A stretch of DNA of 33,957 bases from Limisphaerales bacterium (GTDB lineage Bacteria > Verrucomicrobiota > Verrucomicrobiia > Limisphaerales > AAA164-E04). Below, piece after piece: positions 1,937-29,924 of this stretch. Numbering within the stretch: position 1 is the first letter of the stretch; the number at the start of each line of letters is the position of its first letter. A model generated the notes under the pieces. That model was given only the letters and a program-made list of their open reading frames with translations, was not told the DNA's origin and ran no database searches. Position numbers and translations under genes: made by a program. The stretch covers positions 1 to 33,957 of the forward strand of contig JAMASS010000045.1 in the NCBI GenBank assembly GCA_024761205.1, in the 5' to 3' direction.

Positions 1937-4633
1937 CTACCCAACCACCAAGTTCACCAGTTTCTTCGGCACTACAATCACCTTGCGCACCGGCTTGTCT
2001 TCGATAAACGACGCCACTTTCGCGTCCTTCAACGCGAGCGCTTCGATCTCATCCTTCGAGGCCGTCTGACTCACCCTCAAGCGCGCCCGCAACTTCCCGT
2101 TCACCTGAACCGGGATTTCGAGGGTGCCTTCGACCAGAAGAGATTCGTCGTAATCCGGCCATTCGCTGTAGGCGAGCGTTCCCGCCTCACCCCCAATCAA
2201 CTTCGAGTAAAGCTCCTCCGCTAAATGCGGTGCAAACGGTGCCAACAAGCACAAGAAGGACCGCAGCACCGATTTCGGCCGCACCTCCCAATGACTCGCT
2301 TCGTTGGAAAGGACCATCAGTGCTGAGATGGCCGTATTAAAATGCATCGCATCCAAATCCTCCGTGACCTTCTTAATGCACGTATGTAGCGCCTTCGCCT
2401 GCTCGGGGGTAGGCTCGCAGTCTTGAATGTTCTTCGAAAGCGCGATCGCACCGAGCAGCTTTGTCGGATCACTCTCCTCCATCGCCAGATTCTGATTGAA
2501 CTCCTTGTCACTATCGGGATCCACAAAGAGACGCCAGACACGCCCCAAGAACCGGTAGACACCTTCCACACCTCCACCCTTGGACTTGCCCTTGGGATTA
2601 GGATTCCAAGGCTTCACCATTTCAAGAGGCCCCATAAACATCTCATACAAGCGAAACGCATCCGCGCCGTAGTCTCTGATGATGTCGTCAGGATTGACTA
2701 CGTTGCCCCGAGACTTGGACATCTTCCGTCCGTCCTCGCCTAAAATGAGCCCCTGATTCACCAGCTTATAAAATGGCTCTGGCGTTGAAACATGCCCTAA
2801 GTCGTACAAAACCTTGTGCCAAAAACGTGCATAAAGGAGATGCAGCACAGCGTGCTCAGTACCGCCGACATAAAGATCGACCCCTGTACCGCCCCCCATC
2901 CAGTATTTCTCTACCTCAGGATCGCAGAATTGTTCATCATTCATGGGATCCAAGTATCGGAGATAATACCAGCAACTCCCCGCCCACTGCGGCATCGTAT
3001 TGGTCTCTCGGCACAGGCCGCCGCCAGCCCGGCACCATTCTTTGGCTCGGGCCAATGGCGGGTCGCCCTCCGGTGTTGGCTTGTAGTCGTCCAAGTCCGG
3101 CGGCAGCAACGGCAATGCCCACGCATCAATCGCCTCGTGGGACTCGCCTCGCCAGACGATAGGAAAGGGTTCCCCCCAATAACGCTGGCGGCTGAACAAC
3201 CAATCGCGCAGCTTGTAATTGATGATCTTCCGGCCTTTACCCGTCTCTTCCAGCCAAGTGGTGATTTTCTTTTTGGCCTGCGCGCTAGGCAAATCATTCA
3301 AGAAATCGGAATTGACCGAGGTGCCTTCCCCGATGAATCCAATCGACCCTACCCCGTCCGGTGCTTGAACGACCTTCTTCACCGGCAAATTGAACTTCTT
3401 GGCAAATTCCAAGTCCCGAGAATCGTGGGCCGGCACGGCCATGATGGCTCCCGTGCCGTAAGTCGCGAGCACATAGTCCGCAATCCAGATAGGAATCTCC
3501 TCACCGTTCACCGGGTTTATAGCAAACGCACCGGTGAAGACACCCGTTTTCTCCTTCGCCAAATCCGTCCGCTCGAGATCACTCTTGTTGGCGGCTTCCT
3601 CACGATAGGCAGCCACGCTTTCCTGACAATCCGCCTTGGTGATCGAACCCACCAAAGTGTGCTCCGGTGACAAGACCATATACGTTGCCCCGAACAAGGT
3701 ATCGGGGCGGGTGGTAAAGACCATGATCGAGCCCGTTCCCTCGGCCAGAGGAAACGTCACCTCCGCACCCTCGGAGCGACCGATCCAATTTCGCTGCATT
3801 TCCTTCAGCGAGTGACTCCACTCAACGCCCTCCAAATCCTCCAGCAACCGGGCGGCATACGCCGTGATCCGCAGCATCCACTGACGCATCGAGCGGCGCA
3901 CCACCGGGTAATTCCCGACCTCACTCCTGCCATCGACGACCTCCTCATTGGCCAACACCGTCCCCAGCTCGGGACACCAATTCACCGGAGCTTCCGCCAC
4001 ATAGGCGAGCCGAGCCTCTCGCAAATAGGCCTCACGCTCCGCCTCACTAGACACATTTTCCGGGTAAGTCAGACTTCCAATCCGCTCCGCCCGATTGGTC
4101 TTTTCATTGAACCAACTGCCATAGATTTGCAGAAATATCCATTGCGTCCACTTGTAGTATTTAGGGTCTGTCGTATTGACCTCGCGACTCCAGTCATAGC
4201 TGAATCCTAGTCTCTGAATCTGCCTTCGAAAATTAGCAACATTCGCCTCCGTGGTCTCACGCGGGTGCTGCCCCGTCTTAATCGCATATTGCTCCGCCGG
4301 TAACCCGAATGCATCCCAACCCATCGGATGCAACACATTAAACCCGCGCGCCCGCTTATATCGGGCCAAAATATCCGTTGCCGTGTAACCCTCAGGGTGT
4401 CCGACGTGAAGGCCATCTCCAGACGGATAGGGGAACATGTCGAGGATATAGTATTTAGGCGGAAGCTCTTGAGCCGAAACCTTTCCCTTAAGCTGGTGCC
4501 GGATCGAAAAAGGATGCGTGCCGGCAATCTCATCGCCCGGATTCCAAGCTTTGAAGGTCTCTTGCTGCAACCAACGTTGCTGCCACTTGGGCTCGATGAG
4601 GTGAAACGGATACGACTTCCGTACAGTCGACAT
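1937..4633 (-). CDS. leuS: Leucyl-tRNA synthetase
   Basis: The 898-residue cytoplasmic class Ia synthetase charges tRNA-Leu with leucine. The HIGH signature is HVGH (residues 76-79), preceded by [10 protein letters not shown]; the KMSKS loop is KMSKS at 637-641 in [13 protein letters not shown]. The editing (CP1) domain shows [12 protein letters not shown] and [13 protein letters not shown], the threonine-rich and Asp motifs of the hydrolytic site. The length is somewhat above the usual 800-880, partly from an N-terminal insert around residues 31-57. The ATG at 4631-4633 is the only start codon after an upstream in-frame stop. The best Shine-Dalgarno (GGAGGTGA on the minus strand, 4655-4662) lies unusually far away, 21 nt, with a run of seven C between. 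The gene stands alone on this strand. Confidence 0.97.
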
Positions 4634-4901: not shown

Positions 4902-5711
4902 GTGGACGGCAAGAAACAGTCTGAAGGCTATCGGCAATGGCTGCCATTTTCCCTCGTTGCGATCAGCTCAATCGTCGCGACGCTGACCCTCTCTTCCTCG
5001 TGTTCGTCGCTTCCAGATTCGGTCGTCGTCCCGCCAAAAATTGACGGTGCCCATTATGTGGGCAATCAAAAATGCGTCGATTGTCATGAAGATATCACAC
5101 GAACCTTTCATGGCAGTGTCCATTCCCGATTTTTCAAAGACGACGCCAGTTACCATGGTGTCAGCGGATGCGAATCTTGTCATGGCGCCGGGAGCAAACA
5201 TATCCAAGCAGGCGGCGGCCAAGGGGTTTTTATCCACAACCCCGGACGCGACCCACAGCCCTGCCTTAATTGTCATCGGGATAAACATGCCGAGTTTAGC
5301 CTCCCACAACATCATCCGTTACTGGAAGGCCAAATGAACTGCGTTGATTGCCACGAGCCTCACGGCCGCGAGATCTTCAAGCAACCAGGCGGTCTCGGCT
5401 TGGCCCGTCGAGATCAACAGTGCGCTCAATGCCATCGCGAACAAACCCGAAACTTCATCTTCGTGCACGAGGCGATGCAGGACGGCTGTACGACTTGCCA
5501 CCAGCCTCATGGCTCGGTCCATGACAAACTCCTCGTTCAGCGCGATTCGAATCTCTGCCTCCGCTGCCATTCCCAAATGCAATTCGATCCAGCGCAGACA
5601 TTGATGGGAAAGCTCGACCACAGTGCCTTCTTCCAGATGGGAACCTGCTGGACATCGGGATGTCACACGGCGGTTCATGGCTCCATGGTGAACCCAAGGT
5701 TACTTTACTAG
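4902..5711 (+). CDS. Multiheme c-type cytochrome (DmsE/MtrA-like), lipoprotein
   Basis: This 269-residue exported protein carries seven CXXCH heme sites (Cys58, 90, 121, 147, 174, 196, 219) plus a C-terminal CX4CH, CWTSGCH (249-255), giving seven or eight hemes. Paired His in CHEPHG and CHQPHG, and other scattered His, could serve as distal ligands. The N-terminus has a hydrophobic stretch (residues 15-33) ending SSSC34, a loose lipobox, so it is probably a lipoprotein or otherwise signal-peptide-exported. The spacing resembles periplasmic DmsE/MtrA/PioA cytochromes, which usually have ten hemes and about 300 or more residues; this one is shorter. The start is GTG (4902). The next gene, 14 nt downstream, encodes an outer-membrane barrel, the classic partner. 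The role in passing electrons across the outer membrane is inferred from this pairing. Confidence 0.88.
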   Translation: MDGKKQSEGYRQWLPFSLVAISSIVATLTLSSSCSSLPDSVVVPPKIDGAHYVGNQKCVDCHEDITRTFHGSVHSRFFKDDASYHGVSGCESCHGAGSKHIQAGGGQGVFIHNPGRDPQPCLNCHRDKHAEFSLPQHHPLLEGQMNCVDCHEPHGREIFKQPGGLGLARRDQQCAQCHREQTRNFIFVHEAMQDGCTTCHQPHGSVHDKLLVQRDSNLCLRCHSQMQFDPAQTLMGKLDHSAFFQMGTCWTSGCHTAVHGSMVNPRLLY

Positions 5712-5725
5712 CGTCGGACGGAAGC

Positions 5726-8140
5726 ATGATTCCTCACGAACGCCTCTCATCGCTCCCCCGACAAGCCATGATCGGCGGCACGGTTGTAGCCGCTTCATTG
5801 GCGATCGGCCAAGACACAAATTTACCCCAACTCCCAGCGGCAGCCGACCACACCATCAGCTTCAAAGAGGACGTGCTCCCAATTTTGGAAGGACATTGTT
5901 TCCAATGCCATGGGGATGAACGCCCCAAGAGCGGTTTCAACCTCAGACACCGTGAAACCGCCCTCAAAGGCGGAGACCATGGGGAGGACATCATTCCGGG
6001 TGACAGCGCGAATAGCCCCCTCATTCACTACGTAGCCTACCTGGAAGAGGACATGGAAATGCCGCCAATCGGAAAAGCGGAACGGTTGACGAGCCAACAG
6101 GTAGCCACTCTCCGAGCTTGGATCGATCAAGGCGCCGCCTGGGACGCTCGCGAAGATGATAGTTCGTTACAATATATTTTCGAGCCAACCATCGGCTATG
6201 TCACCGTTTCCGGTGATGAACGCAAGTTCCGCGAGCACTGGTGGCAAGACGATGGCTTCACGGGGGGCATCGCGGAACTGAGTCTGAAGGATCAACTCAA
6301 GGAAGGTACCCGGGTCGAACTCCATTCGCGCTCGATCTTCCAAACCGAGGACCATGAAATTGAACTTTCCTTCCGCAAGCCGGACCTCGGCATCATCCAA
6401 TTCGGTTATGACCAATTCCGCCGCTACTACGACGATACAGGAGGCTATTACGAAGCCTTGGGCCAAGACGCGCCCTCCCTCAATCGGGACCTCTACCTCG
6501 ACAACCGTCGCGCCTGGATTGATGTTGGGCTAACGCTCCCCAACTGGCCCACGATCGTCCTCGGTTACGAATATCAGCATCGCGACGGCGAGAAATCGAT
6601 GATCCACCAGGGCCTAGTCTTTCCCACATCCCCACCCGGAGCGGCTGGCAAGGGCATTTTCCCCTCCTCGAAGCACATCAACGAAGAAACTCATATCATC
6701 AAATTAGACGTGCAGCATGAACAGAGTAGCTGGCAGTTCGAGAACTCCTTCCGCGGCGAGTTCACAGAATTCGAAACACGCCGCGAGACGGCCGACTTCG
6801 TCGACGCTGGTTCGACCGTCCCCGCCTCAGCGACACGGGTGGAAGAAGACTACGATCACTTCAATGGCGCCAACACCATTTATGCGGAAAAACAAGTCAA
6901 ACCTTGGTGGCTCTTGTCCGGTGGTTATCTATTCTCCGATCTCAGCGCGGATGCGGGATTCAACCTCGAGACCTTTCTACCGGCCGACCTATCCGCAGCA
7001 CCCTTTCAGGGGGACATCAGCCGGGGCATTATCCTGGACCGCGACTCGCACGTCATCAATGTCAATTCACTCTTTGGTCCGTGGGACGGGCTGAGCTTTT
7101 TCGCTGGCGTGCAGAACGATTGGACGAGCCAGTCCGGTGACGGCGACCTACTCCTCTTTGGCACTATCCCCACACGGCTTGGTTCGAATCTCGACCAAAT
7201 CACGACCGAAGAAAATTTTGGCCTCCGATACACCAAACTCCGCAACACTGTGGTCTACGCCGACGCCAAATTCCAACAAGTGGATATCGGTCAAAAGGAA
7301 AATCAATTTGTCGACGACGGTTTCCCGGCAGACAACGACTTCATGCGGGACACCAACGCCACAATCGATCACAAAGAGTATCGCACGGGGCTGACCTACT
7401 CCCCCTGGCGTTGGGCCTCGATCGACGCCTGGCACCGCCGCCGACTGCGCCAAAACGACTACAACCACGCGCTAGATACAGACCTCGGCACGTTCGCACC
7501 GCCTGGGAATGGATTCTCGGCATTCATTCGATCGCGCAACGTGGATACCGACGATTTCCAGGTCAAGTTAACCTTGAGACCCGCAAGTCGGGTTCGAACC
7601 ACTCTCTCCTATCGCCTTACAGCAACCGACTACGACATCGCAACCGATCCGGTCGTCGATGTGTTCGGAACAGCGTTCTCAGCTGGTCGGTCCCATTCCG
7701 GCAACTACGATGCCCACATCTACACCCTGTCGAACACAATCCAACCGTCGCAACGCATCCGCCTGACCGGAACCACCACCATCAGCGACCTCCGAACCGT
7801 CAGTGAGCTTACAGATAGCACACTCTTGGCGCCCTACGAAGGACAAATCTACACGTTTCTTGGCACAGCAAATGTCATCGTGAACAAAACGCTGACCTGG
7901 GATACCACCTATTCCTTCTCCAAAGCGGACTTTAGACAGAATGATACCGGACTCAACCTCCCTCTGGGGATTGATTATGATCGACACGGTGTGATCACCG
8001 GTTTTTCCCAGCAACTCAACGACACCAGCTCGCTCCGATTGCATTACGGATTCTTCAAATATGATGAACCCAGCTTGGTCGAAGCCAACGATTACACTGC
8101 CTACGGCCTGTTCGCGACCTTTCGGCGGAGCTTTCAATGA
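5726..8140 (+). CDS. PSCyt1 heme domain fused to MtrB/PioB-like outer-membrane barrel
   Basis: The 804-residue product (start chosen at the ATG at 5726, just before a signal-like segment MIGGTVVAASLAIG, residues 15-28) has two parts. Residues about 43-140 are a Planctomycete-type cytochrome c (PSCyt1) module: DVLPILEGHCFQCHGDERPK with one heme site C58-H62, then GGDHGEDIIPGDSANSPL and MEMPP with candidate Met ligands, ending LRAWIDQGAAWD. Residues about 150-804 are rich in alternating aromatic/polar strands (YVTVSGDERKF, FGYDQFRRYYDD, YGLFATFRRSF) typical of large transmembrane beta-barrels of the MtrB/PioB type. An earlier in-frame ATG (5660) would overlap the preceding gene and give a worse N-terminus. 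With the upstream cytochrome it would make a porin-cytochrome conduit. Barrel assignment rests on pattern and neighbour, not on alignment. Confidence 0.8.
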   Translation: MIPHERLSSLPRQAMIGGTVVAASLAIGQDTNLPQLPAAADHTISFKEDVLPILEGHCFQCHGDERPKSGFNLRHRETALKGGDHGEDIIPGDSANSPLIHYVAYLEEDMEMPPIGKAERLTSQQVATLRAWIDQGAAWDAREDDSSLQYIFEPTIGYVTVSGDERKFREHWWQDDGFTGGIAELSLKDQLKEGTRVELHSRSIFQTEDHEIELSFRKPDLGIIQFGYDQFRRYYDDTGGYYEALGQDAPSLNRDLYLDNRRAWIDVGLTLPNWPTIVLGYEYQHRDGEKSMIHQGLVFPTSPPGAAGKGIFPSSKHINEETHIIKLDVQHEQSSWQFENSFRGEFTEFETRRETADFVDAGSTVPASATRVEEDYDHFNGANTIYAEKQVKPWWLLSGGYLFSDLSADAGFNLETFLPADLSAAPFQGDISRGIILDRDSHVINVNSLFGPWDGLSFFAGVQNDWTSQSGDGDLLLFGTIPTRLGSNLDQITTEENFGLRYTKLRNTVVYADAKFQQVDIGQKENQFVDDGFPADNDFMRDTNATIDHKEYRTGLTYSPWRWASIDAWHRRRLRQNDYNHALDTDLGTFAPPGNGFSAFIRSRNVDTDDFQVKLTLRPASRVRTTLSYRLTATDYDIATDPVVDVFGTAFSAGRSHSGNYDAHIYTLSNTIQPSQRIRLTGTTTISDLRTVSELTDSTLLAPYEGQIYTFLGTANVIVNKTLTWDTTYSFSKADFRQNDTGLNLPLGIDYDRHGVITGFSQQLNDTSSLRLHYGFFKYDEPSLVEANDYTAYGLFATFRRSFQ

Positions 8141-9250: not shown

Positions 9251-11275
9251 ATGGGCAATCTTCGCCACTCGCCGGTGTCCGGTTTGAATTGCCGCCTGAT
9301 TTTCAATCGGGTGTCTCCCATTTGGCCTGCGAACGGACAGAGACCGCTCCTCCTAGCCACCCTGCTCTGCCTGGCCGGCTGCCAGAGCACCAAATCACCC
9401 TCGCCTCAAGAAGCTCGAACAGTCGCTCCAGAGCCGGAAGCAACATCCCTCGCAGAGACGCCTAGCTACAGCATCGAACACGACAAAGAAATCAAACAGA
9501 TCTTTGTCCTGGCCAAACAAGATCGCTGGGAGGAAGCAAAGGTGACCGCAGACCAACTCCGGGAAAAAGACCCCAAGAATGCCACCGTGCTCCGCCTCTA
9601 CGAGTGGGTCGATAAACAGCAAGAACTCCTCCGAAACCAAGCGATCGAGGACACCATTCGCCGGATCGACTCTCAGAATTCCGTGTTTAGTCCGACTGTG
9701 AAAAGCCTCCTCACCGAACAAGCCGACCGCGGCCTCCCCCCACGAAAAGACCTCCGGGACGCAGTGCTTGACATCGAAGCCAACCCCTACGTTCCCAGCT
9801 CCTATAACCAAAAACTGACTCGATCCGCACCCATGTTCGACTTCAAGAACCAGACCGGACGGATGGCGAAGGAGTTGGACAAGGAGTTTTCCGTCAAACT
9901 CGACGATGTCACCCTTGAAGCCATCATCTTTCAGATCGGTGAAGAGGAAGACATCAATTTCGTCGCAGACCAGTCCCTTGAAGCCTTCAAAGAAAAACTA
10001 AGTCTGAACTTCGACAACGTCCGCTTAGGCGAGTTTCTGAACTACATCTCGAGGAACTTCAATCTTCAGTTTCAAGTCGGCGATGACCTGATCTGGATTG
10101 TGGACGGCAAGGACAAGCAGAAAACAATTGAAGAAACACGCATCTACCGCTTACGCAAAGGCTTCATTCTCCCGGCCATTTTCGGCGCCGACGAGATACA
10201 AAAGACCGAGACCAAAGCCAAAGACGGAACAGTCACCACCGTGACCACTCAGAAAGCGAAAACTTTCGTCCGTGACGGGGTTTCCACTACGCCGTCCATC
10301 GAGAGAGCCATCCAAAAATTTTTCAAAGGCTCCCAGTATGAAATCGACTACGAACGCAATATCATTCTGGCCACTGGCACCCGCGAGCAACTCGAAGTGC
10401 TCGAAAGAATTATCGAGGAGTATGATCGACATCTCCAACAAGTATTGATTGAAGCCCGTTTCATTACAGTCTCGGAAGCGGCGTTTATGCAATTGGGCGC
10501 CTTTTGGGAAACCGAACGCTCTTCAGAGACCGAAGACGACCAAGAAGCGAATGATTTTCTCGGATTCGGCACTGAAAACATCGGCCGCGGCCTCCAAGAG
10601 ACTTTCACCGACATCCTCAGCCGCGACAATCTGAGTGTCACCCTGACAGCCCTAGAACAGCAGGGAGAAACCCAGACCTTGAGCGCCCCCCGAATTACTG
10701 TAGTCAACAACCTGCCAGCTCGAATCTCCGACGGTAAGATCCAAAACTACTACGAGGAATACACGGTCACACAGACGATCAATGAGCGTACTATCGTGTC
10801 GACACTCGTCCCCAGCGGCACCCCCAAAGAAATCACCTCCGGCGTCTCACTCGAGGTGATGGCGAGCATCGGTGGCGACGGCAAGACGATCTACTTAGCC
10901 CTCCATCCGGAAGTCAATCAGAACGTCCAGTTGGTCCCCCTCGGCGGCACGGTTAACAACCCCGGCAGGGGCTCCTTTAAGATCGTCCTTCCGGAGTCTC
11001 GTACGCAAACCCTGAACACCCGCGTCATTGTCCAGTCAGGCCAAACCGTCGTCATGGGCGGCGTCCTGGAGCGAGAACAATCCACCTATGTGGAATCGGT
11101 TCCCGTGCTAGGTAAAATCCCGTTCATCGGCTCCGTCTTCCGAAGGCGCACAGAGGTGAACAAACCGCGATACCTCCTCATTTTCGTCACAGCAACGCTG
11201 TTATCCGAGACTGGCGAATTCATCGAAATCCAGGATTCCCCCGCGCCTTCGCCAGAGCCCTCGCTCACGCCGTGA
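9251..11275 (+). CDS. Secretin lipoprotein (GspD/PilQ-like)
   Basis: The 674-residue protein would form the outer-membrane channel of a type II secretion or type IV pilus-like machine. The signal peptide ends in a good lipobox (LAGC, Cys44). A TPR-like helical stretch follows (residues about 70-115), then N-domain repeats (LEAIIFQIGEEEDINFVAD, LGEFLNYISRNFNLQF, and YEIDYERNIILATGT with LEVLERIIEEYD, the last typical of secretin N1/N3 folds). The C-terminal secretin domain has VLIEARFITV, TLSAPRITVVNN and the signature VPVLGKIPFIGSVFRRR, ending LLIFVTATLL. A Pro-rich tail closes it. GTG of the next gene overlaps the TGA (GTGA), so it leads a translationally coupled operon. Residues before about 30 may be untranslated if a later start is used. 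Confidence 0.93.
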   Translation: MGNLRHSPVSGLNCRLIFNRVSPIWPANGQRPLLLATLLCLAGCQSTKSPSPQEARTVAPEPEATSLAETPSYSIEHDKEIKQIFVLAKQDRWEEAKVTADQLREKDPKNATVLRLYEWVDKQQELLRNQAIEDTIRRIDSQNSVFSPTVKSLLTEQADRGLPPRKDLRDAVLDIEANPYVPSSYNQKLTRSAPMFDFKNQTGRMAKELDKEFSVKLDDVTLEAIIFQIGEEEDINFVADQSLEAFKEKLSLNFDNVRLGEFLNYISRNFNLQFQVGDDLIWIVDGKDKQKTIEETRIYRLRKGFILPAIFGADEIQKTETKAKDGTVTTVTTQKAKTFVRDGVSTTPSIERAIQKFFKGSQYEIDYERNIILATGTREQLEVLERIIEEYDRHLQQVLIEARFITVSEAAFMQLGAFWETERSSETEDDQEANDFLGFGTENIGRGLQETFTDILSRDNLSVTLTALEQQGETQTLSAPRITVVNNLPARISDGKIQNYYEEYTVTQTINERTIVSTLVPSGTPKEITSGVSLEVMASIGGDGKTIYLALHPEVNQNVQLVPLGGTVNNPGRGSFKIVLPESRTQTLNTRVIVQSGQTVVMGGVLEREQSTYVESVPVLGKIPFIGSVFRRRTEVNKPRYLLIFVTATLLSETGEFIEIQDSPAPSPEPSLTP

Positions 11276-12990
11276 TCTCTGCCTTTTCCAAACTCACCAG
11301 AATCGCCCATTGGTCGTTCTGGATGGTGGAACGAGTGATGATCATTGATCCCGGAGAATCCGCCACCCTCATCCTCATTGCCGAGCGCATCCTGCGGCAG
11401 GTCCAAATCCGAGAACACATCACCATCCCGACCAAGCTGGCCTCATCAAACTCCCTCATCGCGGAAACCCTCGAAGAACTACGATCACAGCACGACCCGA
11501 TCCGCGTCTACTTGATCATCCCGCAATCCGAAACCGTCTCCCAACGCATCACGCTCGATCAAAAGACCATCGACGAATTCATCACTACCGAAGCAAATCA
11601 GTTCCAAAAGATCGAAGGCACCGAACCGGTCTTCGACCATCAACCGCTTGCCGAGACCTCGGAGAACACCCACTGGCTCACCTATTGCCAAGAACCGGCC
11701 ATCAAACAGCGCCTGCATCATCTGGGCCTGAACTTCGACGATATCGACGACGTCACCAGTGCCGCCCAGGGGCTTTGGGGCGTCTTCGAGAACATCCGGC
11801 CCTCCAATGACAACACCTTTATCATTGATCTTGGCCGACACCACACCGCTCTAATGCAAATCTGTGACGGACAACCCCAATACGCGACCAGTTTCTCCTC
11901 TCCACTGCCACCCAACAACGCCATCCCGGCAAACGAACACCTCAAGCGCTGGTTTCACCATCTCTGCAAGGCACCCTCCAACCTCAGCGGGAATCCCCAG
12001 GAAACGCTGCAACTGACCACTCAAGATCATCTCATTCTCATCGGTGAGAAGGCGCTGATCGAGCCCACCTCAAATTACCTGCGAGAGGAGATCGAATCCG
12101 AAGTGACCGTTGTGGAATCCTCCGCCGATGAACGCCACATGCCCCCTGAGTTTGCCACCGCTCTCGGCGTTGCCCGATCCTCGCTGCGGCTCACCAAACT
12201 CCAAATATCACTTCTGCCCAAAGCCTACCAACATCAAAAAAAACAGAAATTCTTCTGGAACCGTCTGCGAGGCTGGACCAGCGCTCTCGCTCTCACCACA
12301 ATCATCTTTCTGCTCATTGGCACCTGGCAAAAAATCACGCTGTTCCGAATCAAAGACGACCTGCTGAAAGCCACGCAGGCGGCAATCGCAAAAACGTCGG
12401 CTACGGAAGACACCCTGGCAGCGTTCGCCAAGCAATATGAGCTGGTGCGCCCTATCCTGCGATATCAACAAGAAACGACCGAGCTCATCGAAACATTCAC
12501 CGCCCTCCAACCCGTTGCCAAAGACCCATCCTACTGGCTCGTCCTTTTGGCAGATTTTGATTCCTACTACTCCAAGACAACCATTCCGATTTCAACCAAC
12601 GACCCAGAACCCGTCAATAACGTCACCTATTCCAATCGCTTCACCGGCAACCCCGGGTTCGTCGCCGAATTCAGTTTCCTCGATCAGGGCGAAGCGATGA
12701 GAAGCAAGCTGCTCTCACTGGTAAATCGTCTGAATGAAAGTAAAACCTATTTGAACGTCGATACCCTGGCTGAGGACATTCGCCGGCCTCTGGCCAAGAC
12801 CAATGTCTTATTGGCAGATCGGCATATCGCCCTCGCACTCGAACTGCATCGAAACTACTTCACGCAGAAGCTCAGCCTAGGCGCTACAGAGACGGCATCC
12901 GCTTTGGAGAAGGCCAACCCCAGCCCCAATACGAGCCCGTCGTTCAACGATCGCAACGGCCGGATCGAGCCTCAAAGGGAAGCGCCATGA
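11272..12990 (+). CDS. PilM/GspL-like assembly protein, probably PilM-PilN fused
   Basis: This 572-residue protein has an N-terminal actin-like half: MIIDPGESATLILIAE near the start, a central IIDLGRHHTALMQICDG (residues about 184-200, the second phosphate-like motif), and FATALGVARSSL around residue 300. A single membrane helix follows (about 333-355, ALALTTIIFLLIG), then a long periplasmic coiled region. PilM (cytoplasmic) and PilN (membrane) are separate in classical pili but joined in GspL, so this is GspL-like in architecture. It would tether the ATPase at the inner membrane. GTG start overlaps the secretin stop; the true start may be an ATG at 11323 or 11338. Its own stop overlaps the next ATG (ATGA). 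Confidence 0.75.
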   Translation: MISAFSKLTRIAHWSFWMVERVMIIDPGESATLILIAERILRQVQIREHITIPTKLASSNSLIAETLEELRSQHDPIRVYLIIPQSETVSQRITLDQKTIDEFITTEANQFQKIEGTEPVFDHQPLAETSENTHWLTYCQEPAIKQRLHHLGLNFDDIDDVTSAAQGLWGVFENIRPSNDNTFIIDLGRHHTALMQICDGQPQYATSFSSPLPPNNAIPANEHLKRWFHHLCKAPSNLSGNPQETLQLTTQDHLILIGEKALIEPTSNYLREEIESEVTVVESSADERHMPPEFATALGVARSSLRLTKLQISLLPKAYQHQKKQKFFWNRLRGWTSALALTTIIFLLIGTWQKITLFRIKDDLLKATQAAIAKTSATEDTLAAFAKQYELVRPILRYQQETTELIETFTALQPVAKDPSYWLVLLADFDSYYSKTTIPISTNDPEPVNNVTYSNRFTGNPGFVAEFSFLDQGEAMRSKLLSLVNRLNESKTYLNVDTLAEDIRRPLAKTNVLLADRHIALALELHRNYFTQKLSLGATETASALEKANPSPNTSPSFNDRNGRIEPQREAP

Positions 12991-13850
12991 AGACCGCCAT
13001 GCGCACAATTATCCGCTGGGCCCAATCAAACCAAGGGTGTCTCGTGCTCACCGGCATCATTAGCCTCTACTTCCTAGCCATCTATCGACCACTACTAGCG
13101 AGAACCGAACGCCTGGATGGCCCCCTGCAAAACGCTTGGGACCAGCTGGCCGAAATTAACCGAAAGAGCCTGACCCCCGACCGGCTCGATCTCGACAACA
13201 TCTCCCGAGGCCTGACCCAACTGGAACTCAATCTAACCAACGTCACAAACGCAAATGAGACCCTCCTTTCAAGAATCGAAATTGACCCCTTTTACCAAAG
13301 CAAAACCACGGAGACATTTCAACTGATTGACTACCAAAACCAACGGCAAAGCCTGATTGAATCTCTTGGCGAAGTCGCTCACAGCCGAAACGTGAAGATC
13401 GAACCCGCCGTTTTCGAAGGATTCCCCACCCATTTGAGCGATCAACCTCGCCCCAGCTTTCTCTGGGCCGAACTCATTCAAACCCACCATCTGATTCAAT
13501 CGTTGATCTACGCCAAAATCGATTCCATCCAAAACCTTTCTGTGCGGCGTCAACGTGTTCCGATCCTTAGCACCGCCCACCCTCCGGCCCTAACACCGGT
13601 GATCAGTGAGGTGAAGTTTAGCTGCAACTCTGCCCGCCTCGCCCGCCTGCTGCTCATGCTACCGCTCCACAGCGGCGAGATTAACCAAAGACTCGCTCTC
13701 GACTACCCGCCCCACAAACCCAGTCTGTATGTCGATCAAATCTTGATTCAAAAGGACTCGCCCGAACGAACATCGAACGTTACGGTCTGGATGAAGACGG
13801 TGGGGTTTGTTCTTCCGTCCGCTCAACCCGTAAAATCCCAGGAGGGCTAG
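12987..13850 (+). CDS. PilO/GspM-like inner-membrane protein
   Basis: The 287-residue protein has a short cytoplasmic N-terminus, one membrane helix (residues about 16-37, CLVLTGIISLYFLAIYRPLL), a helical periplasmic stretch, and an alpha/beta C-terminal part, the shape of PilO/GspM ferredoxin-fold proteins. Sequence similarity in this family is always weak, so the call rests on topology, size and position between the PilM/L-like and PilP/C-like genes. ATG overlaps the upstream TGA by four bases. Confidence 0.6.
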   Translation: MKTAMRTIIRWAQSNQGCLVLTGIISLYFLAIYRPLLARTERLDGPLQNAWDQLAEINRKSLTPDRLDLDNISRGLTQLELNLTNVTNANETLLSRIEIDPFYQSKTTETFQLIDYQNQRQSLIESLGEVAHSRNVKIEPAVFEGFPTHLSDQPRPSFLWAELIQTHHLIQSLIYAKIDSIQNLSVRRQRVPILSTAHPPALTPVISEVKFSCNSARLARLLLMLPLHSGEINQRLALDYPPHKPSLYVDQILIQKDSPERTSNVTVWMKTVGFVLPSAQPVKSQEG

Positions 13851-13865
13851 TCAACTCATCCAAAC

Positions 13866-14384
13866 ATGTCTGCACGAATGCGACAGAACACGCTGGTAAC
13901 GGTTCTTTCCCTAGGCCTTCTGGCAGCCGTCCTAGGGGCAGTTGTCGTCAGCTTGGGCGGCGACATTCCGCCCCTGCCAAATCTCGAAACTCAGAACCGG
14001 TTTCCCGACGACGAGAACGTCAATGAACGAATTCAATCATTGTTTACTATCTCGGCACCGCCTGAACTCCTCACCCAAGACGCCGCAGCATCCCCCTTCT
14101 TTACCCGCCACTTCGCGCCACCCCCGAAACCACAACCAGCGCCGCCCCAAAAAACCAAGAAAGTTAAAATCGACTTCCAGGGCATCTACACCAACACCAA
14201 AGAGACCCAAAAGGCATTCCTGCGAGTAGACGGAGAATTGAAGGCAGTCAAAGTCAACGAATTAATCGTGGCAGACCTTCGCCTCATGAACCTCGACAGC
14301 AACACGATCATGGTGGGTTCAACCGAAGCGGATCAACAAAGCGTCGGGTTTCGGCAATCCGCTACTTTCGAAATTCCTCAATAA
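13866..14384 (+). CDS. GspC/PilP-like periplasmic protein
   Basis: This 172-residue protein has one N-terminal membrane anchor (residues about 9-30), a disordered Pro-rich linker (HFAPPPKPQPAPPQ), and a small beta-rich C-terminal domain (KIDFQGIYTNT, KAFLRVDGELKAVKVNE). That fits the homology region of GspC or PilP, which links the inner-membrane parts to the secretin. It lies 15 nt after the PilO-like gene and 7 nt before the ATPase gene. Confidence 0.65.
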   Translation: MSARMRQNTLVTVLSLGLLAAVLGAVVVSLGGDIPPLPNLETQNRFPDDENVNERIQSLFTISAPPELLTQDAAASPFFTRHFAPPPKPQPAPPQKTKKVKIDFQGIYTNTKETQKAFLRVDGELKAVKVNELIVADLRLMNLDSNTIMVGSTEADQQSVGFRQSATFEIPQ

Positions 14385-14391
14385 ATCGCTG

Positions 14392-16119
14392 ATGACCGGA
14401 AACCAACTTCAAGATGTCGGCGATCTCCTGCGCTCAAAGGACGTCATCAACGAAGATCAACTTCAGATTATCCGAGGGCACCAGAATCACCGAAATCTAC
14501 CCGTTCATCGACTGATTCTCGATCTGAATTTCGCTTCCGAGCGCGACACGATTCAGGCCTTGGCGGAAATTCACTCTGTTGAATTCCGGCATCTCGAAGA
14601 CTACATCATCCCTGAAGACTTGCTCGAAATCGTTCCCTTGAAACTGATCTTCCACTATCGCTTCATCCCGCTCTCTCGCAACAACGACGTAATCACCATC
14701 GCTTACGGCGATGTTCCAAGCAGCCTCGAATTGGCCAATCTTCGCCTCCTGCTCAAACAGGAAGTCCAATTCGTGCTTACCACGCCGAGCTGCATTGACG
14801 CCATTATCAAATCCCAATTCGGCCTCGGCGCGGAGACAGTGCAGAAACTGCGGGAATCCAAGGGCCATCTGCTCAATGATCACGAACTGATCTTCGATCT
14901 CTCAGACTCTTCGAAGGACAGCGCGGTGGACGGCACCATTTCCGATCTCGTCGCCCAAATCCTCGCAGAGGCGCTTCGTCTGCAGACCACGGATATCCAT
15001 TTCGAACCTTATGCAGATTCGATCAAACTACGTTACCGAATCGATGGAATTCTTCAGTCTATCCCCGTTCCGGGAGAACTTCGACCACTCTATGCCGCCA
15101 TCACCTCACGCCTCAAAGTCATGGCCGAATTAGACATCAGCGAACGTCGGATACCTCAAGACGGCCGCATCTCAATGAAGACCGAAGGTGAAGCCTACGA
15201 CCTCCGGGTATCCGTCATTCCCACGAAACACGGAGAAGCCCTCTGCCTTCGAATTCTCGGACGCCAGAGCCTCCTGCTCGGATTCGAACAACTTGGCATG
15301 CTCCCCAACCAAGAAGCATTGTTTGGTCAAATCACTTCTCTCCCCCAAGGCCTTATCCTCATCAGCGGCCCGACCGGCAGCGGCAAGACCACCACCTTGT
15401 ATGCGGCCCTTGGTCGGGCCAATGACGAACAACGAAAGATCATTACCATTGAAGACCCCATCGAATACCAAATCGAAGGGATCACCCAAATGCAAACTCA
15501 CGACAGAATCGGCCTCTCATTCTCCAAAGGTCTCCGTTCAATCCTCCGACATGATCCCGACATTGTTTTGGTCGGCGAGATTCGCGACAAGGAAACCGCA
15601 GAAATCGCCGTGCGGGCGTCCCAAACAGGTCACCTGGTCTTCTCAACGATCCACGCCAACGATAGCTTGAGCACCATCCCCCGGTTGATCGACATGGGAG
15701 TCGAAACCTCAACTCTCAGTGCTTCGCTAAACTGTTCCATTGCCCAACGACTGGCCCGGAGGACCTGCAACCGCTGCATGAACGCCGACCCAACAGCTCA
15801 ACCAGAAATGATCCGAGAGATGGCCGAAGCCCTCAATCTCCCTGATGACCAACTCAGAATTCACCGTGGCGAGGGCTGCGTCGAATGCCAGCAAACAGGC
15901 ATCAAGGGGCGGATAGCCATCTACGAGTTCGCGCCGATCGATGAATCTCTGGCTGAGGCCATCTATTCTCGAGCCAGCCTCACTCAATTGCGACGAGCAG
16001 CAAAATCGATGGGGTGGAAACCGCTGCGTCAACTCGCTTTCCACCGCATCCAAGACGGCACGATCTCCCTGGCAGAACTCCAACGTGTGACCTGGAGACT
16101 CGACTTCAGCCAAATATAG
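14392..16119 (+). CDS. GspE/PilB-type assembly ATPase
   Basis: The 575-residue cytoplasmic ATPase powers type II secretion or pilus-like assembly. An N-terminal MshEN/GspE_N-type region (about 1-150) precedes the ATPase core: FEPYADSIKLRYRIDG, Walker A GPTGSGKT (G326, K332), Asp box IITIEDPIEY, Walker B VLVGEIRD (E396), and the His box GHLVFSTIHAND. The zinc tetracysteine CNRC (459, 462) and CVEC (496, 499) is present, marking the extension-type ATPase rather than PilT. It is the last gene of the five-gene set; no GspF/PilC platform gene follows. Confidence 0.95.
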   Translation: MTGNQLQDVGDLLRSKDVINEDQLQIIRGHQNHRNLPVHRLILDLNFASERDTIQALAEIHSVEFRHLEDYIIPEDLLEIVPLKLIFHYRFIPLSRNNDVITIAYGDVPSSLELANLRLLLKQEVQFVLTTPSCIDAIIKSQFGLGAETVQKLRESKGHLLNDHELIFDLSDSSKDSAVDGTISDLVAQILAEALRLQTTDIHFEPYADSIKLRYRIDGILQSIPVPGELRPLYAAITSRLKVMAELDISERRIPQDGRISMKTEGEAYDLRVSVIPTKHGEALCLRILGRQSLLLGFEQLGMLPNQEALFGQITSLPQGLILISGPTGSGKTTTLYAALGRANDEQRKIITIEDPIEYQIEGITQMQTHDRIGLSFSKGLRSILRHDPDIVLVGEIRDKETAEIAVRASQTGHLVFSTIHANDSLSTIPRLIDMGVETSTLSASLNCSIAQRLARRTCNRCMNADPTAQPEMIREMAEALNLPDDQLRIHRGEGCVECQQTGIKGRIAIYEFAPIDESLAEAIYSRASLTQLRRAAKSMGWKPLRQLAFHRIQDGTISLAELQRVTWRLDFSQI

Positions 16120-26692: not shown

Positions 26693-27585
26693 TTACCGCC
26701 TACGAGCAGATGATTCGAACTGAGTGCAGGATCAGAGAACAACGGCCGCCGCAACAAGTCCAAAACGGTGAAGAATCGCCACGCTCCAAAATCTGGCGAC
26801 ATCACCTAGACCTCCGATCTCTCGATAGCATCCCGTTCGTCATCCCAAGCCTCGGCAAAGGATGAGAGTGCGATGATCCTTCGCCGCTTTCCCCGCTCAA
26901 GATTTCCGTCTTTCAAAAAACGCTTTAATCGCCGACATGCCTCCGAGGAACTCACAACGCAACAGATACCCACCGCCATCAAGTGTGGCCAGACTCCTCC
27001 TCCTTTGAACACTCCGTTCCTCCTGCTCAAATCCCCTCAAGCCAACTTCAAAACCGCTCCTGTTTTCGCCGCCAAGGCATCATCCCCCGCCTCCGCCGAT
27101 TGCATGTGGCTCCAGCATGCCTAGTGTCGGTTTAGTCACTGTATCACTATGTAAGTCGATCATATAACCCCCAGGTCACTCTCAATCACGGAGAGAAGCT
27201 ACCATCCCATCACCTCCCCTCACAACCAAGCAAGATCACCTACGTATCGCGAAGGCGGTCACTAAATACTACGAGAGCAGCAGCGGATCTGATAGACCGT
27301 GCGAAAAGCAGAATTTGCCGGATATCCCGAACGTTTTCATCATGCAGGCAGGTTAAAAGCGACAACCCCGCTCTCGCACTCCAAAACCTGGCGGAATGGC
27401 GAGAGCTCTTGAAGTGTTCTTGAAGTGTAAGAGCAGAGTTGTGCTTTGGTTATGGCTGACGAGACATCAACGACAGGTATTTCACGCAGCCCGATGAACC
27501 GCCTTTTGGAGACATTCGCCCTACCCGTTTTGTTGTGCCGCCCCATTTCCCCGCTTCATACTTGCTACCATGATAGATCACCAAA
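26693..27585. other. Gene-free stretch
   Basis: About 890 bp without a recognisable gene. It contains one copy of an interspersed repeat (26760-26789). Short frames here have no convincing ribosome sites or family features. It may hold eroded coding DNA too changed to recognise. Confidence 0.5.
26760..26789 (-). repeat. Interspersed repeat, copy 1
   Basis: Read on the minus strand it begins TTGGAGCGTGGCGAT and runs on to CACCGTTTT. It matches the plus-strand copy at 29762-29789 at 25 of 28 positions, including the first 15 in a row. Confidence 0.7.
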
Positions 27586-28170
27586 AGGTCTCAAAGAAAA
27601 GACCGCCCGATCCTGGATGAAGCCGAAGATCAGCCCGTCGAGGTCATCGTTGAGCGATTTGTCATTGAGCGGGATATCGATAAGCAAGTGATCACCTCCC
27701 TAGAGCATGGGATGCAGTTGAGCGACAGCCACCTCGACTTCCAACCCTCTCTTTCCGCCAAACTTTCCAAAAAACAACACAGCCGGATTCAGCTGTCCCC
27801 AACATGCACTCGTGGCCAGGGCGATAAATCGCACACAATTCACCTCAACGATCCCGCCGGTGTTTGCCCAACTTGCGCCGGGATTGAAACGGCCATGAGA
27901 GTGCACCCATAGCTATTATTACCGGACCCAAAATGCACTCTCCGAGACAGCGCAATCGTCAAAGGAGCCTTCAGCAACAGCCGTGACAGTTGGAGCAGCC
28001 GAATGAGGTGGAAATTGGCCGCACACTACGACTTTGACATCGATCAGCCTTGCAAAGAACTACCGGGCAAGGTTCGGGATATCCACTTCTATGACACGGG
28101 CAGCGAGAAATTCAAGATCGTCATCCCAAAAGGCGCGAGTCAAGGAACATTAGATCGGGCCACTTCCTGA
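27586..28170 (+). pseudogene. Remnant of a uvrA-like gene
   Basis: One frame carries clear UvrA features: VEVIVERFVIERDID then SLEHGMQLSD (compare 'VEVVVDRFKVR..L...ETAL.L.dG'), HTIHLNDPAGVCPTCAGI (the 'FSFNxPxGACPxCxGxG' zinc block), IVKGAFSNSRDSW, and HYDFDID..CKELPGKVRDIHFYDTG ('FdldtPwkdLp.kvr..ilyG'). A TAG at 27910-27912 interrupts it where an acidic codon would be expected (one base from GAG). Upstream, two stops at 27571-27576 close the frame, and it ends with TGA at 28168-28170. Only about 195 of the usual 930 or more codons remain, with no Walker motifs. It is a dead fragment of a UvrA or UvrA paralogue. Confidence 0.85.
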
Positions 28171-28703
28171 CCATTGATCCAGTCGACGAAGCCATCGTCG
28201 GATCGAACGGAGAGGAGGAAGCCATCAAATAGATTGAGATCGCTGACATCAAAGCATCTTCGCAGAAATACCGGTGGATCGGGACATGTCCACTACGGTG
28301 GGGCCGTCGAAATTTTCGGTTCTAAAAAGGGCCGGCCCCGTCCTACAAGCGGAATCATCGAAGCCGGATTGGCCCATTCCGTGGAATCTTGCTCGGCTCG
28401 GCGATGCCGTCTTGTGGTAGCGCCACAAGGATTCTGCGGGCACCAGATCAATTGTGCCCGCCGAACAAAAGGGCGACGATGAAAAAGAGGAACCCGATGA
28501 GAAGCTGTTCGAAGGGGGTGGACTGTTCGCATAGAGCTTGGTGGTACACAATGCCTGCTACCGGTCGAGTCCGTCCAATCGGCGCGAGGTGTGTCCGCAA
28601 GTCCAAGTCAAGTGCAGATTGCCGCAAGCACTGATGAAGTGCCCGTGGGAGTTTTGATGATTTCGGTTGGAGGATGCTTGCATCGATCCAGCATTTGCTT
28701 TCT
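28171..28703. other. Unassigned stretch with an interrupted frame
   Basis: A plus-strand frame from 28298 to 28534 is open except for one TAG (28418-28420). It reads KFSVLKRAGPVLQAESS, then WPIPWNLARLGDAVLW, and after the stop RHKDSAGT and a Glu/Lys-rich end. I do not recognise it. On the minus strand the same DNA encodes a hydrophobic run FEQLLIGFLFFIVALLFG, so the coding strand is unclear. Confidence 0.3.
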
Positions 28704-29060
28704 GACTAGCCATCCGCAAATCCGTTGACACCAGAGCGATCATGATATTTGAGGTAGCCGCCAAACAAGGATTACTTCGGATTGAGGAGCAGCAACCGAT
28801 TCATGGCATCTTGCAGTAGGTTTCGAAGCCCCGGCTACCCAGGTTAGAATTCCGTAAGTGCCGTTATTGTTCCTAACCATTTCGTCCTCCGAATCAATGG
28901 CGTAGAGATTCCAGATAATCGCCAATTGCTTCATGTTATTGATGCATTTGACTGGTGGACTTTGCCCTTTGCTTTGGTGAAGGCGGGAAGGAGCATTCCG
29001 GCGAGAATCGCGGTGACGATTAGTAACTCTATCGGGGCAAATGCGGCAAGTTTGAGGATG
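28704..29060 (-). pseudogene. Decayed pseudopilin (prepilin-type N-terminal domain)
   Basis: On the minus strand the N-terminus reads AFAPIELLIVTAILAGMLLP, then AFTKAKGKVHQ. This is the prepilin methylation helix ('[22 protein letters not shown]..AKEKA', with the key Glu). After a frameshift (near 28945) it continues KCINNMKQLAIIWNLYA, DSEDEMVRNNNGTYG, LTWVAGA, as in Verrucomicrobiota pseudopilins. A further shift leads to DAMNRLLLLNPK, a stop, then SLFGGYLKYHDRSGV ('NT.LLLNPKySLFapYLKS'). With at least two frameshifts and two stops it is a pseudogene. Confidence 0.8.
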
Positions 29061-29190
29061 GGTTTGGAAAACGTGGCTTTCAGGTAGAGTTTAATGACGG
29101 AATTAAGTCGAAAATGAAATAAAATAGCGACAATAAATTTGCACTGAGTGCTTCTTCCATTGCCCGGAGTAGCCTCGGGGCGGTAGCGAC

Positions 29191-29212
29191 GGGAGCCGTT
29201 CGGAATGCTCCC
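29191..29212. repeat. Perfect 6-bp hairpin
   Basis: GGGAGC (29191-29196) pairs with GCTCCC (29207-29212). Its loop and right arm contain TTCGGAATGC (29199-29208), which recurs inverted at 29353-29362. Confidence 0.5.
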
Positions 29213-29761
29213 GGGGCGATCGCTCCTCTCCCGTCGACCGGGTTGTTGGGGGCGCTCCAGAGGGATGCACTCCAGCCGGAGGCTGAGTCAACGCCACTAA
29301 ATCGATCGCCAACTCCAGCCGTTCAGACTCGGACAGCCAAGAGCGGTCAGAGGCATTCCGAATGGCGCGCGCGCTTCACAAGGGTGTCCGTTGCCCTAGG
29401 CGGCACAGGTGCGCTGGCGAATCTCACCCGCCACGCAGACACAAGGAGCTCCCGCTGGCTCAGCGAATCCTGGGCGCTCTCCAGCAGGGCGCCTTCCTTT
29501 CCACTGATTCGTCTCTTCATCTCGGCGCTATCGGCGTCCCGGTTAATGAAGCGGCGCCCGGTTGAGCGATCTTCCAGCCCCTCAGTGTCTTCTCTAAGTC
29601 AGCTGTGGGGAAACTGTTCTTCGCCTCGCTCCGTGGATCGTGGCTCCTCCACTCATCGCGCCCGCTCCGCCCGTTCATCGGATCGCCCCCCTTTCTGCGG
29701 GATCGCCGCGGTGCAGCCTCATGGAGTCGGTCATTTCGGTTGCCCTTGCTAGGCAGAGGTC

Positions 29762-29790
29762 TTGGAGCGTGGCGATCTTTCACCGCTTTT
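29762..29790 (+). repeat. Interspersed repeat, copy 2
   Basis: It begins TTGGAGCGTGGCGAT, followed by CTTTCACCGCTTTT. Matches copy 1 (26760-26789, opposite strand) at 25 of 28 positions. Confidence 0.7.
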
Positions 29791-29924
29791 TCCTGCTGTG
29801 TCACGAGTGTCTGCGCTGAGTTTGTGCCCTTTTCCAATCACACACCGGCCCTACATCCAGTGGATTTTGTTCTTAACGGGCCCGATAGGAATGCGGTAAC
29901 GTCTGCAGCTCGCGGAATTTATTC

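Follow-up and report, generated by a model that had tools for sequence, protein, structure and literature searches.

In the described outer-membrane electron conduits of the MtrAB type, the barrel protein is an insulating sheath without a redox centre, and separate proteins bridge the periplasm. Here we describe a gene pair from a Limisphaerales bacterium (Verrucomicrobiota), in which the gene of an octaheme c-type cytochrome is followed by the gene of a predicted outer-membrane barrel protein with its own N-terminal PSCyt1 heme domain. The pair lies in a stretch of 33,957 nucleotides (contig JAMASS010000045.1 of assembly GCA_024761205.1), which is called the window below and belongs to a 4.94-Mb genome (our contig C40). 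Leaving the direction of electron flow aside, we consider it quite probable that the pair is a porin–cytochrome conduit of the MtrAB/MtoAB/PioAB kind with a tethered heme.

Shewanella MtrAB(C) (6R2Q; PMC7198977) shares with the window pair the MtrA-type cytochrome, the 26 barrel strands and the tight periplasmic turns. In MtrB, the first strands are likewise short and the loop that joins strands 1 and 2 contains a helix (PMC7198977); both features are seen in the model of the window barrel. In the window, however, the cytochrome has eight hemes and not ten, the last heme motif is CX4CH, a lipid anchor is predicted, and no MtrC is present at the locus. MtrB has only about 30 residues before the barrel (PMC5971433), whereas the window protein has a heme domain there, and the sequence similarity between the two barrels is at or below detection. 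In the case of PioAB(C) and MtoAB(D), which take up electrons, a surface multiheme protein is absent, as in the window, and a small periplasmic carrier is used (PMC6831781, PMC12016527). This carrier is a separate protein (the high-potential iron–sulfur protein PioC or the monoheme MtoD), whereas the monoheme domain of the window protein is covalently attached to the barrel. Cyc2 (PMC8406198) likewise has an N-terminal monoheme domain fused to an outer-membrane barrel on the periplasmic side. However, Cyc2 has 16 strands and no multiheme wire, and the window pair, with 26 strands and an MtrA-type octaheme, does not belong to this family.

A novel cluster of a porin and an octaheme cytochrome was described in six Verrucomicrobia metagenome-assembled genomes (MAGs), Opitutus terrae and others (He et al., 2017, mSphere; PMC5615132). 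As in the window, an eight-heme periplasmic cytochrome is encoded next to a porin with 20 or more strands. An extracellular multiheme cytochrome is encoded in several of the clusters, and humic-substance reduction was proposed (PMC5615132). These clusters are very probably the family without a fused heme domain, termed type B below. Thus, this kind of system is already known. The text of He et al., with which we compared our loci (by text, not by gene sequences), mentions no heme domain of the porin, whereas the loci termed type A below have the PSCyt1 fusion and no multiheme neighbour of that kind. No report of the PSCyt1–barrel fusion, of the clade-wide missing surface cytochrome or of the cupredoxin neighbours was found in the literature searched, which mostly did not include subscription journals. 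The initial annotation of the window had suggested a distinct type of extracellular electron transfer in Verrucomicrobiota. This suggestion holds for the fused variant only; the plain octaheme–porin conduit was already published (PMC5615132).

The octaheme cytochrome and the fused barrel protein

The features of the gene pair are listed below with their positions in the window.

4902–5711, plus strand: octaheme c-type cytochrome, MtrA/DmsE-like, exported, 269 aa, GTG start (profile and family-model matches)
5001–5003, plus strand: Cys34, where the signal peptide ends, predicted to be lipidated (invariant among the 45 homologues; C19 of alignment A3)
5073–5087, plus strand: heme site 1, CVDCH (motif, invariant in the alignment, as for sites 2 to 7)
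5169–5183, plus strand: heme site 2, CESCH
5262–5276, plus strand: heme site 3, CLNCH
5340–5354, plus strand: heme site 4, CVDCH
5421–5435, plus strand: heme site 5, CAQCH
5487–5501, plus strand: heme site 6, CTTCH
5556–5570, plus strand: heme site 7, CLRCH
5646–5666, plus strand: heme site 8, CWTSGCH, of the CX4CH type, aligned with the last MtrA heme (alignment and MtrA profile match)
5726–8140, plus strand: PSCyt1–barrel fusion protein, exported, 804 aa (Pfam match, alignment)
5726–5809, plus strand: probable Sec signal peptide, residues 1–28 of the fusion protein (read from the sequence: basic N-terminus, hydrophobic core, then small residues ahead of QD)
5897–6067, plus strand: PSCyt1 core as matched by Pfam PF07635, residues 58–114 of the 804-aa protein (80–136 of an 826-aa frame)
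5897–5911, plus strand: heme attachment motif CFQCH, C58–H62 (motif, alignment)
6059–6061, plus strand: Met in the EMPP motif, probably the distal axial ligand to the PSCyt1 heme (invariant, M85 of alignment A2; the ligand role is deduced)
6170–8134, plus strand: 26-strand outer-membrane barrel, MtrB-like (AlphaFold2 model and fold search)

The coordinates, the gene order and the gap of 14 nt between the two genes were given in the initial annotation, and all were correct on re-inspection. An alternative in-frame ATG at 5660 gives the 826-aa frame, which overlaps the cytochrome gene.

The cytochrome had been described as carrying seven or eight hemes. Seven CXXCH motifs and one C-terminal CX4CH motif are present, and all eight sites are invariant in the alignment of 45 homologues. 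Thus, the count of eight stands with CX4CH as the eighth site, and the count of seven does not; it also differs from the ten hemes of the MtrAB and PioAB wires. The octaheme profile (A3) was searched against the PDB, and MtrA of the solved Mtr complex was matched with an E-value of 4.9e-41 (chain 6r2q_A of 6R2Q). In this match, the last hemes of the octaheme and of MtrA align end to end. Chain A was taken as MtrA, and the molecule name printed for it in that listing is wrong. In NCBIfam, the window cytochrome matches GSU2203 (E 5e-46) and DmsE (E 2e-39), both under the curated cut-offs; its score for the DmsE/MtrA model TIGR03508 is 135 bits against the family cut-off of 192 bits. TIGR03508 and the GSU2203 decaheme model match all of the 45 octahemes, the former at E ≤ 1e-3. 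Judging from these sequence matches, we assign the cytochrome as an MtrA homologue that has eight hemes instead of ten. The invariant Cys34 is best explained as a lipidation site, and the octaheme is thus a predicted outer-membrane lipoprotein; the lipobox of the window cytochrome (SSSC) is weaker than in most homologues.

The N-terminal PSCyt1 module of the barrel protein, which had been read from the C58–H62 motif, is confirmed by the match of Pfam PF07635 (E 7e-16, 59 bits, cut-off 22). Thirty fused relatives were aligned at full length together with the window protein. The PSCyt1 model matches all 31 proteins, and C58, C61, H62 and the distal Met of EMPP are invariant among them, which suggests His/Met ligation of the heme. 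An artefact of assembly or a frameshift was considered for the fusion and ruled out, as it recurs in the 30 aligned relatives and in 66 further loci (the two sets partly overlap). The initial annotation had proposed looking for the same fusion beside multiheme cytochromes in other genomes. It was found beside the same octaheme in dozens of independent assemblies, and chance juxtaposition is ruled out. A search of plasmids gave PSCyt1 domains only. A stand-alone PSCyt1 protein, exported, with one heme and 145 aa, is also encoded in the genome of the window (L161, 4005–4442 on the minus strand, contig C34 of genome G000). It shows 46% identity to the fused domain and starts similarly (LPAAADKEVDF, against LPAAADHTISF in the fused domain); it probably illustrates the kind of protein from which the fused domain descended.

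The barrel part of the fusion protein has no Pfam match of its own. Its structure was predicted by AlphaFold2 as a single chain using an alignment of 48 sequences, resulting in a mean predicted local distance difference test score (pLDDT) of 89. The initial annotation had staked its barrel reading on about 20 or more strands, and the model has 26. According to Foldseek against the PDB, MtrB is the top match (E 8.8e-16, TM-score 0.71 by target). VIA-align also placed MtrB at the top, with a Z-score of 21.7 and 3.5 Å over 556 residues; the runner-up has a Z-score of 14.1. A chance barrel call is ruled out by this fold result. The first strands are short (10–15 residues), most of the strands 7–20 have 20–27 residues, and a helix (residues 138–145) forms the loop joining strands 1 and 2. 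On the side where the chain starts and ends, the turns are short, with a mean of 3.3 residues, whereas the loops on the opposite side have a mean of 10.2 residues. Thus, both chain ends and the heme domain should be periplasmic, and the model agrees with the side originally proposed for the PSCyt1 heme. The likeness to the MtrA/MtrB and PioA/PioB arrangement noted at the outset was also upheld, with an MtrA homologue followed by a barrel of MtrB-like fold.

Fused and unfused relatives

The barrel is present in 44 of 58 sampled relatives. Using the octaheme profile, one genome per species was scanned, and 80 loci were obtained: 66 are fused (type A) and 12 are unfused (type B). With 17 loci from the relatives, the type B set amounts to 29. 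The octaheme gene adjoins the fused barrel gene in all type A loci of which sufficient sequence is available. Two of the MAGs with type A (L115 and L121) belong to Limisphaera. The flanks were scanned up to 8 kb and are often cut by contig ends. A further gene with at least three CXXCH motifs lies nearby in 22 of the 29 type B loci, whereas none was detected in the 66 type A loci. Fisher's p is about 1e-15; as the loci are related by descent and the flanks are often cut, this value is not a true probability. In the window, no other gene with at least three CXXCH motifs lies beside the pair, and a surface decaheme cytochrome like MtrC/OmcA of MtrCAB is thus missing there. The absence of an adjacent surface cytochrome, first noticed in the window, therefore extends to all 66 type A loci.

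According to parsimony on the octaheme tree, there is one change between types A and B (two on an earlier quick tree), and the fusion probably arose once. Both types are present in eight genomes (G004, G013, G020, G021, G023, G024, G034 and G056), which indicates that they are not interchangeable. In a sample of 288 genomes spread evenly over the phylum, the barrel was found in 17, and the window is the only clear type A; three open reading frames of 808–870 aa in this sample were not checked for PSCyt1. Two MAGs labelled Deltaproteobacteria (L127 and L130) have type B octaheme–barrel pairs, by horizontal transfer or misbinning.

In about 18 of the 66 type A loci, the neighbourhood of the pair, upstream or downstream, encodes a secreted cupredoxin, mostly followed by immunoglobulin (Ig) domains. 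An SCO1–CusF fusion (copper chaperone) is present in 11 and an extracytoplasmic function (ECF) sigma factor gene in sixteen. Nine tested cupredoxins exceed the Pfam cut-off, and the others were assigned by the copper-site motif or lower scores. On the octaheme tree, the presence of cupredoxin switches about 11 times, and the association is therefore a recurrent one. The genome of the window gave no PF00127 (cupredoxin) match, the neighbour protein has no homologue in it, and no additional redox partner was found within the window. In nine loci (L072, L077, L079, L082, L083, L090, L092, L095 and L107), a secreted Ig-domain protein (with cupredoxin in most), the SCO1–CusF fusion, the octaheme and the PSCyt1–barrel protein are encoded in this order. 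Most of these nine have a divergent ECF sigma factor gene upstream, several with a second, anti-sigma-like gene.

Proposed electron path and direction

By homology, the octaheme, held at the outer membrane by its N-terminal lipid, would act as a wire inside the 26-strand barrel, and the barrel would insulate this wire across the membrane. The PSCyt1 domain would be a His/Met monoheme cytochrome at the periplasmic rim, where the first hemes of the wire emerge. The N-terminal hemes of MtrA project into the periplasm (PMC7198977), and PSCyt1 is predicted on the same side. Thus, the simplest role of the domain would be that of a tethered exchange partner, which passes electrons between the wire and soluble periplasmic carriers. 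It would then do the job of shuttles that are separate elsewhere (MtoD, PioC and the small tetraheme cytochrome STC). At the outer end, the wire may exchange electrons directly with soluble or small partners, using no surface multiheme cytochrome, and the secreted cupredoxin may be the outer partner in some relatives. A conserved fusion of a monoheme domain to the sheath fixes one partner, and makes the question of how the periplasmic gap is crossed testable.

His/Met hemes usually have a higher potential than the bis-His hemes of such wires. The genome of the window encodes two heme-copper oxidases, one of the aa3 type and one cbb3-like. Based on these aerobic oxidases, the analogy to PioAB and MtoAB, the lack of a CymA-family match and a His/Met heme that is likely of higher potential, the balance tips modestly towards net inward flow, in which an extracellular donor is oxidized and the electrons end on an aerobic oxidase. 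We thus lean to electron uptake rather than to a differing terminal acceptor step, as assumed in the initial annotation.

Several points weigh against the proposed conduit and its direction. The octaheme was placed inside the barrel by homology, and its own AlphaFold2 model was discarded (pLDDT 49.7). The confidence of the barrel model falls in the linker (residues 114–117), so the placement of PSCyt1 relative to the barrel mouth is tentative. The search against the MtrB/PioB family, proposed with the initial annotation, was negative for the window protein, which neither MtrB_PioB (PF11854) nor TIGR03509 matches. Among the 48 relatives, PF11854 matches four weakly (best 5e-6) and TIGR03509 matches two (5e-4). 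The barrel sequence profile also gave no MtrB match in the PDB at E ≤ 1; the link to MtrB thus rests on the fold and on the weak family matches in relatives. No NapC/NrfH/CymA family match was found in the genome, other quinol-oxidizing proteins not having been searched for, and CymA is replaceable. In addition, other multiheme proteins are encoded elsewhere in the genome and are possible surface cytochromes. Two large octaheme proteins, in which a long C-terminal region looks repetitive (L151 and L154, contigs C13 and C56 of G000), and a hexaheme protein (L152, contig C7) were observed in this genome.

The strongest alternative is net outward flow, which we regard as less probable than uptake and yet as a serious candidate. 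Electrons from periplasmic carriers would pass through the PSCyt1 heme and the octaheme directly to extracellular acceptors such as humic substances or Fe(III) in anaerobic or micro-oxic respiration. The first step would be uphill if the potential of the His/Met heme is above that of the bis-His wire hemes, and no NapC/CymA protein for supplying such a path was matched. MtrA-type wires are able to run in both directions (PMC6831781), and the homologous Verrucomicrobia system was proposed as a humic-substance reducer (PMC5615132). However, Fe(III) reduction by Shewanella needs MtrC or a paralogue (PMC6831781), and type A has no surface multiheme cytochrome.

A copper-linked conduit, in which the secreted cupredoxin replaces MtrC and electrons move between the periplasm and a copper protein or enzyme outside the cell, is doubtful as a general explanation. 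The cupredoxin-plus-Ig and SCO1/CusF neighbours described above argue for it, as does their recurrence on the tree, and cupredoxins are induced on magnetite like MtoA (PMC12016527). However, the cupredoxin is absent from most type A loci, the genome of the window has neither a PF00127 match nor a homologue of the neighbour protein, and just nine tested proteins exceed the Pfam cut-off. The surface location of the cupredoxin is also one that we infer.

It is improbable that the PSCyt1 heme is structural, or that it shuts the pore or gives a signal as long as the octaheme is missing, instead of relaying electrons. Such an assembly or redox gate, of which the gating was raised in the initial annotation, would suit a sheath protein with a single heme at the likely pore entrance. 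However, its ligands are invariant as in ordinary electron-transfer cytochromes, a free monoheme relative with 46% identity and a like start sequence is encoded in the same genome, and the type B barrels manage without PSCyt1. The reading as an ordinary large porin or transporter that chances to adjoin a cytochrome gene is largely refuted and very improbable, since MtrB stands far above the other fold matches (Z 21.7 against 14.1 or less), TonB receptors among them, and the MtrA homologue keeps its place next to the barrel in all type A loci that are long enough to show it.

Returning to electron uptake through the tethered heme, the clade-wide missing surface multiheme cytochrome and the partial cupredoxin/SCO1 neighbours point to a different outer partner. 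In a tentative extension, which we consider rather unlikely in full, the tethered high-potential heme would be a one-way, uptake-biased inlet in an aerobic clade of Verrucomicrobiota, and copper proteins would replace the surface multiheme cytochromes. The conserved fusion also suggests electron exchange with the cell exterior in many Verrucomicrobiota, among them lineages from lakes, soils and the sea that are not known as metal respirers.

Surroundings of the gene pair

Both genes of the pair are on the plus strand, flanked by leuS on the minus strand (1937–4633) and by a DUF4126 gene. In ten of the 66 type A loci (for example L061, L066, L071 and L080), a leuS gene is found no more than about 8 kb away from the conduit, which suggests that the conduit has kept its chromosomal position through a long vertical descent. 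Downstream of the conduit (9251–16119), a secretin is encoded, together with genes resembling pilM/N/O and the assembly ATPase gene of type IV pili or type II secretion systems; such an operon is not among the commonest neighbours of the 66 type A loci. No Rfam match and no tRNA were found in the window. At the left end of the contig, a fragment of an IS1595-type transposase (207–479) and a SocA/Panacea antitoxin-like gene (912–1376) are located. A stretch of 3.2 kb (26693–29924) has no convincing gene on either strand. The GC skew changes its sign near 28.5 kb, and inverted repeats of 33 nt (85%) are located near the ends of this gene-free stretch, at 26762 and 29757.

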